Below are positions 51,187 to 57,246 of a DNA stretch of 64,000 nt, one piece after another (positions within the stretch are counted from its first letter, which is position 1; each line of letters opens with the position of its first letter). The stretch spans positions 1,364,501 to 1,428,500 of the forward strand of contig NZ_CP022707.1 in NCBI RefSeq assembly GCF_025340265.1, read 5' to 3'. Source of the stretch: Novosphingobium sp. 9. Lineage in GTDB: Bacteria; Pseudomonadota; Alphaproteobacteria; Sphingomonadales; Sphingomonadaceae. The notes below the pieces were generated by a model. That model did not search any database. It saw only the letters and a program-made list of their open reading frames with translations, and was not told where the DNA came from. Both the position numbers and the translations under genes were made by a program.

Positions 51187-52584
51187 CTATTCGCCTTCGG
51201 CCCCTTCCTCAGGCACCAGCTCGGGGATCGCCAGCACGACCAGCAGGCCCTTGTGGTCGGGCAGGTTCTCCAGCCGGATCGTGCCGCCGCTGAGCGCCAT
51301 GGCCTTGGCGGCGATCGAGAGGCCAAGGCCGCTGCCGCTGGTGCTGCCTTCGCCGCGCTCGAAACGATGCATCAGCCGTTCGCGGTCGGCCTCGGGCACG
51401 CCGGGGCCGCGATCGGCAATGCCAATGGTCAGACGGTCGAGGTTGCGGGTCACGGCGATGTCGATCCGCCCGCCTTCGCGGGCATGTTTGGCGGCATTGT
51501 CGATCACGGCGGCGACGGCGATCTGGAGCGCTGCCGGATCGCAGCGCCAGCGCACGATGCGGTCTGGCGCGACGGTGAACTCCATTGCATCGGGCGGCAG
51601 TTCGATCAGCTTTTCGGCGACGACTTCGGCGATCAGCTGGTGCACGTCCACCGAGCGGCTGGAAACGACCGTCGAATCGAGCCGCGCCAGCGTGAGCAGC
51701 CCGTCGATCAGGTGATTGGCGCGGTCTACCGTGGCGATCAGGCGCGTCGTCTCCTCGGTGGTGGCGAGCGGGGCGGTGCGGCGCAGCAGTTGCGCCTGCG
51801 CGCGGATCGCGGCGAGCGGCGTGCGTAACTCGTGGGCCACATCGTCGGTAAAGGCCTGCTCGCGCTCGTAGGCCTTGTCCAGCCGCACGAACAGCTTGTT
51901 GAGCGCGACGATCAGTGTGCCAAGATCGCGCGACCATTCGCGCGGGCGCAGCGGTTGCAGATCGGCCAGCGAACGCGCGCCCAGCGTCGTGGCAAGGCGC
52001 TGCACTTCGTACAGGCTGCGGCGCAGCGTCCACCACAGGACGACCATGCTGGCCGCGATCAGGGCGATCAGCGGAATGGCCAGTTCGCGCAGGACGCGTG
52101 AGGGGGAAATCTCGCGGATTTCCTGCCGTTCCGCCACGACGATCAGCAGGCGGGGATCGTGCCCGACAAGGCCGTAGCTGCGCCAGTGATCCCCTACCGC
52201 CTTGAAATTATGAAGGCCGGGGCGGCGGGGGACTTTGGCAATGGGCGCACCCCAGCCGGACTGGGCGACCGGCTGATCCTCCCAGAACACCGCGAACATG
52301 CACCAGTCGTAGGAGGCGTGGAACGCCTGGCGCTCGGAGGGCGACAGCAGCGGGTCGCCGCCGCCTTGCAGGCCGCGGCCGTTGGCGACGATCTCGCCCG
52401 CCACATCGTCCTGCATCAGCATATAGAGCAGGCGCGAGGCGTTGACGAGCTGCGCATCCGAAGCGCGACCGATCTCGTGATCGGCGACGACATAGAGGAT
52501 CGCGCCCATGCCAAGGCCGGTCAGCGCCAGCAGGATCAGTACGCGGCGATAGAGCCGGATGGTGAGCGAGGAGCGCAGCTTCAT
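51187..52584 (-). CDS. Sensor histidine kinase (QseC/TctE-like)
   Basis: 465-residue inner-membrane kinase. Helix 1 (about 13-34), periplasmic sensor (about 35-165), helix 2 (about 167-187), HAMP-like linker, HisKA domain with phospho-acceptor His251 (AFTDDVAHELRTPLAAIRAQ), and HATPase with N box VIDNAAKHAREGG, G1 IADRGPGVPE and G2 GSGLGLSIA. The signal is unknown. The start overlaps the regulator's stop by ATGA, so the pair is coupled. Confidence 0.92.
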   Translation of the reverse strand: MKLRSSLTIRLYRRVLILLALTGLGMGAILYVVADHEIGRASDAQLVNASRLLYMLMQDDVAGEIVANGRGLQGGGDPLLSPSERQAFHASYDWCMFAVFWEDQPVAQSGWGAPIAKVPRRPGLHNFKAVGDHWRSYGLVGHDPRLLIVVAERQEIREISPSRVLRELAIPLIALIAASMVVLWWTLRRSLYEVQRLATTLGARSLADLQPLRPREWSRDLGTLIVALNKLFVRLDKAYEREQAFTDDVAHELRTPLAAIRAQAQLLRRTAPLATTEETTRLIATVDRANHLIDGLLTLARLDSTVVSSRSVDVHQLIAEVVAEKLIELPPDAMEFTVAPDRIVRWRCDPAALQIAVAAVIDNAAKHAREGGRIDIAVTRNLDRLTIGIADRGPGVPEADRERLMHRFERGEGSTSGSGLGLSIAAKAMALSGGTIRLENLPDHKGLLVVLAIPELVPEEGAEGE

Positions 52585-53249
52585 GTCTGGCTGCCGCCCA
52601 CCATGTAGCCAAGCCCGCGCGCGGTGCGGATGAAATCGCGCCCGAACTTGCGGCGCAGCGCCGAGATCGCGACTTCGACGGTGTTCGATTCGACCCAGTG
52701 GTCCTGATCGTACAGCTCGCCTTCGAGGTCCGCTTTCGAGACGAAGCGGCGGGCGCGGCGCATCAGCAGGGCCAGCACCCGGTATTCCTTGGCAGTGATC
52801 GCCACCGGCTCGCCCGCCAGCAGCGCGACGTGTCCGGTAAAGTCGAGCGTGACATCGCCCACACTCAGGCTGTCGGCCTGTCGCCGGTCGGTACGGCGCA
52901 GCTGCGAACGGATGCGCGCGGCCAGTTCCTCCAGATCGACAGGCTTCACCACATAGTCGTCGGCGCCCGCATCGAGTCCGGCGACGCGATGCTGCGTGCG
53001 GTCGAAGGCGGTGATGATGATCACCGGCACGGCATTGCCTTCGCCGCGCAGGGTCTTGAGCACATCGATTCCCGACAGACGTGGAAGGCCGATGTCCAGC
53101 AACAGCACGTCGTAGGGATTGACGCTGGCCGCCTCCAGCACATCGTCGCCGCGCGTAAAAAGATCCACGACGTACCCGTCCAGCTCCAGTGCGCGTTTCA
53201 TGGCGCTGCCGAGGTCGGGATCGTCTTCGGCTACGAGCAGGCGGGGCAG
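52581..53249 (-). CDS. OmpR-family response regulator, apparent CTG start
   Basis: About 222 residues if begun at CTG 53249. Receiver: acidic pair in LLVAEDDPDLG (Asp9, Asp10), phospho-acceptor Asp52 (DVLLLDIGLP), Lys102 (YVVKPVD). The C-terminal winged helix (about 130-222) ends FIRTARGLGYMVGG. The first in-frame ATG (53201) would delete strand 1 and the acidic pocket, which cannot give a working receiver. Upstream the frame has no ATG, GTG or TTG before a TAA, but CTG at 53249 has GGAG 8 nt before it. Alternative: a missing C in the run at 53243-53246 would join a GTG start. Coupled to the kinase. Confidence 0.85.
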   Translation of the reverse strand: MPRLLVAEDDPDLGSAMKRALELDGYVVDLFTRGDDVLEAASVNPYDVLLLDIGLPRLSGIDVLKTLRGEGNAVPVIIITAFDRTQHRVAGLDAGADDYVVKPVDLEELAARIRSQLRRTDRRQADSLSVGDVTLDFTGHVALLAGEPVAITAKEYRVLALLMRRARRFVSKADLEGELYDQDHWVESNTVEVAISALRRKFGRDFIRTARGLGYMVGGSQT

Positions 53250-53525: not shown

Positions 53526-54299
53526 ATGACAGTACAGCAGTCGCCCAGCGAGATCGCCCTTCGCACGCCGCTCGATACCGGCCTCACCTTCACGCCCGCC
53601 CGCGCCGAGACGGGCCTTGCCCCGTGCGTCGCGCTGATCGGCTGCGACGGTTCCGGCAAGTCCACGCTGGCGCGCGATCTGGTGACACTGCTCGATCGCC
53701 GTGCGCCGACGCGCTCGGTCTACCTCGGGCTGGGGACGGGCGACCTTGGTCGCCGCATCGGGGAGATGCCGGTGATCGGCGCATTTGCCGAACGGTTCCT
53801 GACCGGCAAGGCGAAGAAGGCGCACGACAATCCCGAAAAGCGCCTGCCCGGCCTTGGCACGGCGATGGCGATGTTCGGCCTCTCGCTGGTGCGCCGCCGC
53901 CGTTTCCAGCAGGCGCTGGCCCTGCGCCGGCAGGGTGTGACCGTCATTACCGACCGCTATCCGCAGGCCGAAGTCCCCGGCAGCTTCGACGGGCCGGGCC
54001 TGTCGTGGCTGCGTCGCGGCACCCCCGCAGTGGAGCGCCTCGCCCAGCGCGAGCGCCAGCTCTATCGCGACATGGCCGCTTATCGCCCGAGCGTGGTGAT
54101 CCGCCTGAATGTCGATGTCGATACCGCCATCGCTCGCAAGGCCGATCACGAGCGCGCGCTTCTGGAAAAGAAGATCGCGGTGGTCCCCACGCTGCGCTTT
54201 GCAGGCGCGCAGATCGTCGATGTCGATGCCACGCGGCCTTATGGCGAAGTGCTGGAATCGGTGCTCGCGGTGCTGCGCCGCCACGGCATCGAGGCCTGA
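53526..54299 (+). CDS. Thymidylate-kinase-like P-loop kinase 1
   Basis: 257 residues. After a 30-residue polar N-terminus comes Walker A GCDGSGKST (39-47), then a TMPK-type DR(Y/F) motif in ITDRYPQAEVPG, and a lid-like region ARKADHERALLEKKIAVVP. C-terminal FAGAQIVDVDATRP. The fold family contains thymidylate kinase, but the middle region (LGLGTGDLGRRIGEMPVIG, GSFDGPGLSWLRRG) differs from true Tmk, so a sugar, lipid or other phosphate acceptor is likely. First gene of a four-gene cassette; paralogous to the next. Confidence 0.72.
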   Translation: MTVQQSPSEIALRTPLDTGLTFTPARAETGLAPCVALIGCDGSGKSTLARDLVTLLDRRAPTRSVYLGLGTGDLGRRIGEMPVIGAFAERFLTGKAKKAHDNPEKRLPGLGTAMAMFGLSLVRRRRFQQALALRRQGVTVITDRYPQAEVPGSFDGPGLSWLRRGTPAVERLAQRERQLYRDMAAYRPSVVIRLNVDVDTAIARKADHERALLEKKIAVVPTLRFAGAQIVDVDATRPYGEVLESVLAVLRRHGIEA

Positions 54300-54371
54300 G
54301 CGTACACAACCTGACGACAGGTATGGCATCGGCAGGTGACGGCTGCGCCGGTTTGCGATAACGGGCGCAGC

Positions 54372-55073
54372 ATGAAGGCAACTCCTCTTCCGCCGCTGAT
54401 CGCGGTCGTCGGGTGCGATGGCTCCGGCAAGTCCACCGTGACCGAGGTTCTGCGCGACTGGCTGGCCGAAACCCGCCCCGCGCAGATCTGTCACCTTGGC
54501 AAGCAGTCCGGCAATATCGGGCGCCAGATCGCGCGCCTGCCGATGTTCGGACGAAAGCTGGACAAGTCGATCCATTCGCGCGCGCAGAAGGCGCAGACGG
54601 ACAAGGGGCCGGGGCTGGCGACGGCGTTGGTGATCTATGGCTTCTCGATGCGCCGGGTGCGCCGCTTCGCGCGGATGATGCGCCTGCGCCGCGCGGGCAA
54701 CACGATCATCGCGGACCGGTTTCCGCAGCTCAAGGTGCCGGGGCCGATGGACGGCCTGGGCCTTGCCGGGGCGTCCGACAGCGGTCCGGTCGGCGTGCTC
54801 AAGCGCATGGAATATCGCCGTTATGCGGCGATGGTGGCGAACCGGCCCGATCTGGTGATCCGCCTCAACGTTTCGCTGGAGGTGGCTCTGGCGCGCAAGC
54901 CCGATCATCGCCCGTCCTCGCTGGCCCGCAAGGTGGCCGACGTGCCGCGCCTGACGTTCGAGGGCGCGCCGATCGTCGACATCAGCGCCGATCAGCCGCT
55001 GGAGCAGGTGCTCGCACAGGCCAAGGCGGCGATCACCGCGAAGCTCATCGAACTCGGGAGCCCGGCTGCGTGA
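54372..55073 (+). CDS. Thymidylate-kinase-like P-loop kinase 2
   Basis: 233 residues, paralogue of the preceding gene. Walker A GCDGSGKST (14-22), GKQSGNIGRQIARLPMFG matching the LGLGTGDLGRRIGEMPVIG region, IIADRFPQLKVPGPMDGLGL, lid-like ARKPDHRPSSLARKVADVP and FEGAPIVDISADQP. It lacks the 25-residue N-terminal extension of kinase 1. An in-frame GTG at 54336 would add 12 residues. The stop overlaps the flippase start by GTGA. The two kinases probably act on related intermediates or as a heterodimer; substrate unknown. Confidence 0.72.
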   Translation: MKATPLPPLIAVVGCDGSGKSTVTEVLRDWLAETRPAQICHLGKQSGNIGRQIARLPMFGRKLDKSIHSRAQKAQTDKGPGLATALVIYGFSMRRVRRFARMMRLRRAGNTIIADRFPQLKVPGPMDGLGLAGASDSGPVGVLKRMEYRRYAAMVANRPDLVIRLNVSLEVALARKPDHRPSSLARKVADVPRLTFEGAPIVDISADQPLEQVLAQAKAAITAKLIELGSPAA

Positions 55074-56425
55074 GCAGAAGCCTCAATCCCAAGCACTGGT
55101 TTTCCGATGGCGTGTTCCGCGCCATCGTGCGCAATGCCTCCTACCTCGGCTCGGGCAAGCTCATGGGCGCGCTGCTGGGGCTGATCGCGCTGGCCTGCGC
55201 GGGGCGCGGGCTGACCCCGGCGCTGTTCGGTACGCTGGTGATCGTCCACAGCTATGCCAATGGCGTGGGTGCGCTGGTGAAGTTCCAGACCTGGCAGTTC
55301 ATCGTGCGCTACGGCACCCCGGCCTTCGGGCGCGGCGCCATCGACGAATTGAAGGACGTTACCGGTTTCGCCTTCGGGCTGGACCTTGCCAGCGGGCTGA
55401 TCGGCATGGCGGGCGGCATGATCCTGCTGCCGTTCCTGGGCGAGTGGCTGAGCATTCCCGCCGCCGACATGAACCTGGCGCTGTTCTACTGCACCCTGAT
55501 CCCGACGATGACGGCGGCGACGCCCACCGGCATCCTGCGCGTGCTCGACCGGTTCGACCAGATCGCGCTGCAGCAGCTTGTTACCCCGATCCTGCGCGCC
55601 GTCGGCGGCCTGATCTCGTATTTCGGGCATCTGGGTTTCCCCGGCTTCGTCCTCACCTGGTATGTCGGCGACCTTGCCGGAGACCTGTGCCTGTGGGCGA
55701 TGTCGGTGGTCGAACTGCGCCGCCGGGGCATCCGCGGCGCGCTGCGTCCCGGCCTGATGGGGCCGGGCAAGCGCATCGCGGGCGCCTGGGACTTCGTGTG
55801 GACCACCAACTTCGCGCATTCGATCTGGGCCGCATGGGGGCCGGTCAGCAACCTGATCGTCGGCGCGCTGCTGGGGCCTGCTAGCGCGGGCCTGTTCAAG
55901 ATCGCCGCGACCTTCTTCGATTCGGCGAGCAAGCCTGCCGATCTGCTGTCGCGCAGCTTCTATCCCGAGATCATGCGCCTCGATCCCTCCAGCCGCCACC
56001 CCTGGCAGCTGGCGATCCGCAGCGCGCTGATGTCCGGCGCAATGGGCTTCGTGATCCTGCTGGTGGTGATCCTGGGCGGTGAGCCGGTGATCGCGGCGGT
56101 ATTCGGCAAGCGTTATCTTGCCGCCTACGACCTGCTCCAGCTGATGACCGCCTCGCTGATCGTGACGATGGCGAGCTTCCCGCTCGAATCGCTGCTCTAC
56201 ATGGCCGGGCGCCAGCGCGCGGCGCTGTTCGCGCAAGGTGCGGCGGCGGCAGGCTATGCGGTGCTGCTGTTCGTGCTGATCCACCTGTTCGGCGTGACCG
56301 GGGCGGGGCTTGCCTATGTCGGCGGGGTCATGCTCAACGCGCTGTTCATGCTGATCCCGACCTGGGATGCCTACCGCAAGCGGGCGAGCCTCAGCCATGA
56401 GCCGGTGCAGGAAGCGCCTGCATGA
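55070..56425 (+). CDS. Wzx-type flippase / polysaccharide biosynthesis protein
   Basis: 451-residue polytopic membrane protein of the MOP superfamily, about 12-14 helices beginning ASYLGSGKLMGALLGLIALACAGRGLTPALFG, the typical start of O-antigen or oligosaccharide flippases. Such proteins move lipid-linked glycans across the inner membrane. The GTG start at 55070 overlaps the kinase 2 stop and has GGGAG 9 nt upstream; its own stop overlaps the next gene by ATGA. No glycosyltransferase or polymerase is adjacent, which is unusual. Confidence 0.85.
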   Translation: MSRSLNPKHWFSDGVFRAIVRNASYLGSGKLMGALLGLIALACAGRGLTPALFGTLVIVHSYANGVGALVKFQTWQFIVRYGTPAFGRGAIDELKDVTGFAFGLDLASGLIGMAGGMILLPFLGEWLSIPAADMNLALFYCTLIPTMTAATPTGILRVLDRFDQIALQQLVTPILRAVGGLISYFGHLGFPGFVLTWYVGDLAGDLCLWAMSVVELRRRGIRGALRPGLMGPGKRIAGAWDFVWTTNFAHSIWAAWGPVSNLIVGALLGPASAGLFKIAATFFDSASKPADLLSRSFYPEIMRLDPSSRHPWQLAIRSALMSGAMGFVILLVVILGGEPVIAAVFGKRYLAAYDLLQLMTASLIVTMASFPLESLLYMAGRQRAALFAQGAAAAGYAVLLFVLIHLFGVTGAGLAYVGGVMLNALFMLIPTWDAYRKRASLSHEPVQEAPA

Positions 56426-57246
56426 CCGCGCGCGCCTATCCGCCGCAGGTGATGGCGGCGATGTTCGAGGCGGTGGAGATGAACGACGTGGTCGATCCCG
56501 TCGTCAGCCTTCCCGATCCGCTTCCCATCGCCTGCACCGAGGCGGATATCCGGGGCTGCTTCGCGCTGTGCCGCCAGTTCTGGGAAGAGGGCGCACCGCG
56601 CGCCGAGATCGCGCAACTGCTCGGCACGCTGATGGCCAGCGGCGATCTGCCGCGCGAATCGCGGGTGCGCTACAAGCATATCCGCGCCAGCTACAAGCAG
56701 TTGCGCTTCGCCTCTGTGCTCTATGGCAAGCGGCACAAGGCGCCGCTGCTGTTTCGCTGGACGGTGGCCTTGATGGGGCACTTGCAGGATGCCTTCCGCA
56801 ATGGGCGGCGCATGACGGTGCTGGGCCATGTTCTGCTGCTGCGCCTGCTGGTGACATGGCCGGTCTGGGCGCTCGTGCGGCGCGAGATCGACCGGATAGA
56901 GCTGGACGATGCTGCCGGGTTCCTCGCCTTCCGCCGCGCCGAGTTCGCTAAACTTCGCCGCTGGACCGAAGGCGGGCATCCCACCGGCCACGTCTTTCAC
57001 ATGATGCGCAAGGTGGTGAGCCGGCAGGTCTCGTTCTACGATTCCTGGCGCACCATCGCGCCGGACGAGGATCGCTATCGCATGTCGCGCTTTCTGAGTG
57101 CGATCAACGGCTTGATGGGCAGTCTTCATGACGATCTGGTGGAGCAGACCTGCAAGGGCCTGCGCGACTACCACCGCGACGACGTGGCCTTGCCCGAGGA
57201 TATCGACCAGCGGCTGCGCACGCTCGTAACCGCGCTGCCAGCCTAA
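56422..57246 (+). CDS. Unknown helical protein, last gene of kinase/flippase cassette
   Basis: 274 residues, rich in charged amphipathic helices and conserved-looking basic runs (RVRYKHIRASYKQLRFASVLYGKRHKAP; MMRKVVSRQVSFYDSWRTI). One moderately hydrophobic stretch (about 131-151, LGHVLLLRLLVTWPVWALV) could associate with the membrane. No family is recognised; the abundance of Arg/Lys/His on helices recalls phosphate-binding helical domains such as CHAD, but I cannot claim homology. Coupled to the flippase by ATGA, so a shared function is likely. Confidence 0.7.
   Translation: MTARAYPPQVMAAMFEAVEMNDVVDPVVSLPDPLPIACTEADIRGCFALCRQFWEEGAPRAEIAQLLGTLMASGDLPRESRVRYKHIRASYKQLRFASVLYGKRHKAPLLFRWTVALMGHLQDAFRNGRRMTVLGHVLLLRLLVTWPVWALVRREIDRIELDDAAGFLAFRRAEFAKLRRWTEGGHPTGHVFHMMRKVVSRQVSFYDSWRTIAPDEDRYRMSRFLSAINGLMGSLHDDLVEQTCKGLRDYHRDDVALPEDIDQRLRTLVTALPA

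Follow-up and report, generated by a model that had tools for sequence, protein, structure and literature searches.

Among described systems, the sphingolipid genes of Caulobacter and Escherichia coli stand closest to the locus reported here, a four-gene cassette in a 64-kb stretch (the window, C1:1364501-1428500) of the two-contig, 4.39 Mb genome of Novosphingobium sp. 9. Dihydroceramide synthesis, as studied in E. coli BL21(DE3), in Caulobacter, and in their relatives, is assigned to the genes for serine palmitoyltransferase (spt), an acyl carrier protein (ACP), an epimerase, and an acyl-AMP ligase, together with yghO (PMC9386255; papers are cited by PMC number). The Caulobacter locus CC_1168-CC_1152 (CPG/CPG2) contains a ceramide kinase, CpgB, the second Lpt genes LptC2/F2/G2, and a potential flippase, CC_1166 (PMC11324152, PMC10331486); CpgD is also known in the phosphosphingolipid pathway of Caulobacter (PMC12275187). 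According to PMC11324152, the route by which sphingolipids travel from inner to outer membrane is not known, and the authors of a 2024 study had identified no flippase or lipid transporter (PMC11087976). The Novosphingobium cassette, which encodes two P-loop kinases (K1 and K2), a flippase, and a protein designated p4, is at a probability of roughly 0.6 an accessory module that tailors and flips an anionic sphingolipid.

All four genes are on the plus strand: K1 at 53526-54299 (257 aa; closest in E. coli to YghS and YghR); K2, of the YghT lineage, at 54372-55073; the flippase, a MOP-superfamily homologue of E. coli YghQ, at 55070-56425 (GTG start, 451 aa); and p4, by predicted fold a diverged CHAD protein, at 56422-57246 (ATG start, 274 aa). 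K2 follows K1 after 72 bases, counting from its ATG at 54372 (a GTG at 54336 is the alternative start), and is joined to the flippase gene by a GTGA overlap (55070-55073), as that gene is to p4 by an ATGA overlap (56422-56425); the open reading frames and the sequence bear out the original prediction of four codirectional genes with these overlaps. With E. coli yghT-yghS-yghR-yghQ and the adjoining p4 gene (ECD_RS14865 in BL21(DE3)) the cassette shares homologous kinases, flippase (50% identity, over 444 columns with the full-length SCU-301 protein), and p4 (39%), as well as the flippase-p4 order. The E. coli set differs in having three kinases and in clustering with spt, ACP, epimerase, fatty acyl-AMP ligase, yghO, and LptF/LptG; no two-component system matching that of Novosphingobium (see below) was found there. 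The likeness to the Caulobacter CPG system lies in ceramide genes accompanied by a lipid kinase, second Lpt genes, a proposed flippase, and an anionic sphingolipid. CpgB, however, has the GGDG motif of sphingosine-kinase-type enzymes rather than the thymidylate kinase (TMPK) fold (PMC10331486), and the available text of PMC11324152, PMC10331486, and PMC12275187 describes neither a TMPK-like pair nor a CHAD protein. No CpgB-type (DAGK_cat/GGDG) kinase is present in the window cassette, and among the loci compared a DAGK_cat protein was recognised only in that of Pseudomonas veronii.

The link to sphingolipids is strong in gammaproteobacteria and only consistent in alphaproteobacteria. Homologue searches with p4 yielded 242 relatives at E<=0.001 (120 of these are among the matches listed), and K1 has 1256 relatives; a scan of genome contigs gave at least 42 loci. 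Thirty gamma-type loci were compared, 29 from the scan (one in a record named Martelella alba) and one on a Pseudomonas plasmid, with E. coli (L066) and two further plasmids (L069 and L070) as references outside this count. Spt, ACP, a CerR-like epimerase, and fatty acyl-AMP ligase were each found in 29 of the 30 fetched stretches, the flippase in 29, yghO (cerS) in 28, LptG2 in 26, and LptF2 in 25; the locus without the Spt set (L038) begins at a contig end. In E. coli SCU-301, yghT diverges from yghS-yghR-flippase-p4-YtfJ-LptF-LptG, which is followed by spt-ACP-epimerase-fatty acyl-AMP ligase and yghO; E. coli Spt passes the NCBIfam serine palmitoyltransferase cut-off (599 vs. 500 bits). DgkA-type lipid kinases are encoded in several of the gamma-type clusters. 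An Asp/Asn beta-hydroxylase-family gene follows yghR in five loci of Rhodanobacteraceae and P. veronii (L034, L035, L036, L062, L072); its product is perhaps a ceramide acyl-chain hydroxylase.

Of 294 Enterobacteriaceae genomes, 26 carry p4, and exactly these 26 also have Spt (at E<=1e-90); the two genes lie within 6 kb of each other on one contig in 25 of them and on different contigs in one. Fisher's test gives 8e-38, a figure that, as the genomes share ancestry, should be read as complete co-occurrence and not as a probability. Counted gene by gene in 5426 complete E. coli genomes, p4 is present in 4103, spt in 4088, and yghR in 4579. In K-12, a shortened yghQ is separated from yghO by an IS5 element in place of the block from p4 to the acyl-AMP ligase, so the remaining genes are orphans there; in BL21(DE3) the complete set is annotated, unbroken. 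Two plasmids (L069/L070), one from Klebsiella michiganensis that is typed as conjugative and one from Rahnella aquatilis, also carry ceramide clusters with yghTSRQ-p4-LptFG: the module travels.

Twenty-four alphaproteobacterial loci were counted, the window included and several of them sharing a genome, all with p4 (L033, a duplicate of L019, was dropped, and L020, L022, and L023, which have only a kinase, were not counted). The neighbourhood proved to be conserved, with all four genes together in 17 of the 24; because they recur jointly in these loci, which had been picked for p4, the four-gene set is not a chance one. Among the others, three from a family designated f9 (probably Acetobacteraceae) have both kinases and p4, one has K2, flippase, and p4, an Acetobacter plasmid has flippase, p4, and one kinase, and two have p4 alone. 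One of these last is a second copy in the Novosphingobium sp. 9 genome (G000:C2:763082-763897; L016:10077-10895), 55% identical to the first, which adjoins a TonB-dependent receptor gene and has no recognised kinase or flippase in the fetched stretch. Gene order varies among the gamma, Rhodanobacteraceae, sphingomonad, and Acetobacter-type versions, while the parts remain together.

In alphaproteobacteria, each of 20 further whole genomes, 18 with p4 and two (G083 and G048) in which a kinase relative is all that was found of the cassette, has one clear Spt, scoring 356-388 bits where no other match exceeds 191. Spt is expected in most sphingomonads, so this is consistent rather than strong evidence. 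Three plasmid records searched by themselves have no Spt. Sphingolipid genes are scattered in Sphingomonadales (PMC11324152); around the spt of Novosphingobium sp. 9, the E. coli reference proteins picked out nothing beyond Spt itself and the ACP next to it. Some neighbours are suggestive: two of the f9 genomes have a gene for a PAP2 lipid phosphatase between those for the kinase and p4, and the Acetobacter plasmid has one for an LptF/LptG permease two genes from p4. Together with the DgkA and DAGK_cat proteins mentioned above, these speak for a phosphorylated lipid. The cassette is also carried by Novosphingobium sp. BL-8H (P0017, P0128), whose sphingolipids have been profiled by liquid chromatography-tandem mass spectrometry; many masses in the sphingolipid cluster are called unknown, and the available part of the paper mentions neither kinase nor flippase (PMC13318209).

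K1 and K2 are paralogues (42% identity over 228 columns) with the common motifs GCDGSGKST, DRYPQ/DRFPQ, and ARKADH/ARKPDH, as had been recognised from the sequence. A TMPK fold is predicted for K1 and, by extension from it, for K2, which is 50% identical to E. coli YghT and groups with it with 100/98 support in a tree of 11 rows. They resemble thymidylate kinases, and perhaps PPK2 (PMC8776046), in their P-loop kinase fold and DR motif, and differ in having DR[YF]PQ (53 of 54 aligned kinases) and in missing the SxxAYQ segment (all 54). Automatic annotation names such proteins “dTMP kinase” or “thymidylate kinase,” and K2 just passes the Pfam Thymidylate_kin cut-off (27.6 vs. 27 bits), as would suit spare kinases for dTMP or other nucleotides beside an unrelated polysaccharide flippase. 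This explanation, already disfavoured, is highly improbable. A canonical Tmk, with the segment DRYLDSSRAYQ, is encoded elsewhere in the same genome, and none of the 54 aligned cassette-type kinases has the dTMP-site motif DR[YFH]xxSxxA[YF]Q (derived in part from that segment; a longer thymidylate kinase signature was discarded because the canonical Tmk did not match it either). With the dTMP kinase equivalog TIGR00041 (cut-off 83.25 bits), K1 scores 21.9 and K2 27.7 bits, and no protein among K1, K2, YghT, YghS, and YghR exceeds 30.9 against the 83 required. That the kinases are found, conservedly, with the flippase, p4, and ceramide genes also speaks against a nucleotide role. Duplicates of dTMP kinase were rejected on the missing dTMP-site motif and the canonical Tmk elsewhere. 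The outcome that would have told against the original prediction, a match of the kinases to a characterised family of unrelated role, did not occur: in the libraries searched no such family scores above its cut-off, apart from the marginal Thymidylate_kin score of K2.

Kinase matches in the family of Novosphingobium sp. 9 are found in 15 of 99 genomes, nine of them weak and of P-loop size and six strong. In two K1 relatives (L020:9799-10764 and P0185), the N-terminus bears, ahead of the kinase domain, a stretch that by eye looks membrane-spanning, a hint that the substrate may be membrane-bound. Another, in L022:956-5154, whose genome has Spt, lies near genes for three further proteins: a MobA-like nucleotidyltransferase, an ATP-grasp protein resembling D-Ala-D-Ala ligase, and an SGNH-like protein. 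In a metagenome-assembled genome (L031:7057-7830) the K1 frame is split in two, by sequencing error or real loss.

The fourth protein, originally assigned to no known family, is CHAD-like by predicted fold, according to structure prediction and alignment of hidden Markov models (HMM-HMM). CHAD is a polyphosphate-binding fold, in which His253, Arg256, and Arg260 of CtCHAD contact polyphosphate (PMC6537752). The predicted p4 structure has the helical CHAD fold with two helical repeats; the HMM-HMM alignment of p4 with CHAD domains has E 1.2e-4 and a probability of 55% (E 0.2 with the p4 alignment reversed); in global mode only 15 columns are aligned, at E 0.23. The CHAD set for this comparison kept 20 of 25 loci, and the open frame and HxxR-type motif required of them favour CHAD-like rows. 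H193 and R196 of p4 fall in register with the second CHAD repeat; K85, R88, K92, and R95 align with CHAD repeats only at low confidence (E 0.013 in the alternative alignment). By motif spacing, K85/R88/K92 keep the register of CtCHAD His253/Arg256/Arg260, with Lys for the first His. None of these six basic residues varies among the 60 homologues aligned. The predicted fold, the repeats, and the basic register are alike, and p4 differs from CHAD proteins (PF05235) in its sub-threshold Pfam score, the Lys in its first repeat, and its flippase neighbour. Four of 62 aligned p4 members do match CHAD, at best with E 0.0031; a CHAD family search of the genome itself found none, and no CHAD relative of p4 came up when solved structures were searched by sequence.

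The basic residues of this fold might suggest a different role, in which the TMPK-fold kinases make or use inorganic polyphosphate and p4, by binding polyphosphate, regulates the envelope or sphingolipid export. The architecture of PPK2 does resemble thymidylate kinase (PMC8776046), and CHAD genes of biomining archaea have a conserved context for which a figure 2 legend names PPX, SixA, and dTMP kinase (PMC10892726). Soluble polyphosphate, however, needs neither a dedicated flippase nor linkage to ceramide genes, and the Pfam matches that K1 and K2 have at E<=1 include no PPK2 family; we consider this role clearly improbable. The archaeal context may be a distant parallel of the kinase-CHAD pair.

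The flippase is of Wzx type, as originally proposed: it matches PF01943 (Polysacc_synt; 37.4 vs. 28.2 bits) and PF13440 (26.4 vs. 23 bits). A hydropathy count gave five strong segments only, and was not used. This MOP-type membership would also fit kinases that phosphorylate the sugar of a carrier lipid (undecaprenyl or glycosyl-ceramide) for export by a Wzx-like flippase, an explanation near the original idea of a lipid-linked glycan. A weak match to CDP-glycerol glycerophosphotransferase (19.2 vs. 22.1 bits) in L079, a GT2 gene after LptG2 in the Klebsiella plasmid copy and in L041, and the PAP2 protein, whose best NCBIfam match is undecaprenyl-diphosphatase (far below cut-off), all lean this way, as do the glycosyltransferases near some alphaproteobacterial versions (see below). 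The window cassette and the annotated E. coli clusters, however, are without a glycosyltransferase, and the tight link of the gamma-type loci is to ceramide genes, which makes the explanation an unlikely if reasonable one. The earlier observation that no glycosyltransferase or polymerase is present held for the seven neighbouring proteins scanned for families.

Several points weigh against a sphingolipid module. Glycosyltransferases do occur near five alphaproteobacterial versions (L079, L071, L081, L032, L063). Spt is nearby in none of the 24 alphaproteobacterial loci, window included, and that of Novosphingobium sp. 9 (363 bits) is about 540 kb from the cassette. The match between p4 and Spt in 26 of 26 genomes overstates the evidence, because genes that are linked, in genomes that are related, are not independent, and two extra Enterobacteriaceae copies of p4 have no Spt on their contigs. 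Spt exists without p4 as well: an order-level sample of 197 genomes around E. coli, nearly uninformative for p4, has p4 in one (the centre itself) and Spt in two, so that one genome has Spt alone. Counting Novosphingobium sp. 9 in both cases, p4 was found in four of 99 genomes of its family and in four of 299 of a phylum sample; from the family count and the Spt genome without p4, the cassette is not needed for sphingolipids as such. As to the fold, p4 is under the Pfam CHAD threshold, the window protein has no CHAD match at E<=1, and its first repeat matches CHAD weakly (E 0.013).

On balance, the part of the original prediction that coupled phosphorylation of a lipid to its export is supported in outline, with kinases unlike ordinary dTMP kinases, a flippase, a conserved neighbourhood, and a probable lipid role; the lipid is most likely a sphingolipid, because the gamma cassette lies inside ceramide clusters and the 26 of 294 genomes with p4 are also those with Spt, and its phosphorylated part may or may not be a glycan. 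The analysis shows the order and homology of the genes, the predicted folds of their products, the conserved basic residues of p4, the gamma linkage, and co-occurrence with Spt and ceramide genes; from these we infer the chemistry: substrate, reaction, direction of flipping, binding by p4, and regulation. At the inner leaflet, the K2/YghT-like and K1/YghS-YghR-like kinases would phosphorylate a head group derived from ceramide, probably at a phosphate already present, in the manner of nucleoside monophosphate-type kinases. The CHAD-like p4 would hold the phosphorylated head group in a basic groove, and the YghQ-like flippase would turn the lipid over the inner membrane, outwards; in most gamma-type versions, a second LptF/LptG set would pass it on to the outer membrane. 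More speculatively, the kinases may extend a ceramide phosphate to a di- or oligophosphate, held by the CHAD protein and exported by the flippase, as a lipid-anchored polyphosphate. The data allow for such a head group, in that the acceptor for enzymes of TMPK type is itself a phosphate and phosphate chains are what CHAD binds, and we regard it as rather unlikely.

Control of the module in Novosphingobium-type genomes is probably by a two-component system that diverges from K1 and was absent from the original prediction. It consists of an OmpR-type response regulator (52581-53243, minus strand; PF00072, PF00486) and a sensor histidine kinase (51187-52581, minus strand; closest in NCBIfam to QseC and PmrB, under the cut-off of each). 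The pair (51187-53243) is part of the conserved unit: it diverges from K1 in 13 of the 17 four-gene alphaproteobacterial loci, window included, with identities in the other 12 of 74-85% for the regulator and 59-74% for the sensor kinase. L020, L021, and L055 have only weak matches to it, near 30%. The regulator frame has no ATG, GTG, or TTG before the receiver motif, so that a rare start codon seems to be needed and the start is uncertain. Downstream of the cassette is a glutamine amidotransferase-like gene on the opposite strand.

No earlier link of the cassette genes to sphingolipids was found in the literature searched, nor any functional study of yghQ/R/S/T or p4; most subscription papers lie outside its coverage. 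Searches for yghQ with sphingolipid, and for ceramide-oligophosphate terms, gave no result; sphingolipid with thymidylate kinase, serine palmitoyltransferase, and Escherichia coli gave Arabidopsis only, among the matches listed; and “thymidylate” is nowhere in the main text of PMC11324152 or PMC9386255.

The automatic label “dTMP kinase” is corrected here for this family, and three candidates are named: a lipid kinase of a new class, a flippase, and a phosphate-binding partner. If the oligophosphate version were true, some sphingomonads and the gene-carrying three quarters or so of complete E. coli genomes would make a lipid-anchored polyphosphate. For the orphan E. coli genes yghQ/R/S/T and p4, the analysis offers a testable role tied to bacterial sphingolipids, and with the set annotated unbroken in BL21(DE3), the question is testable at once.

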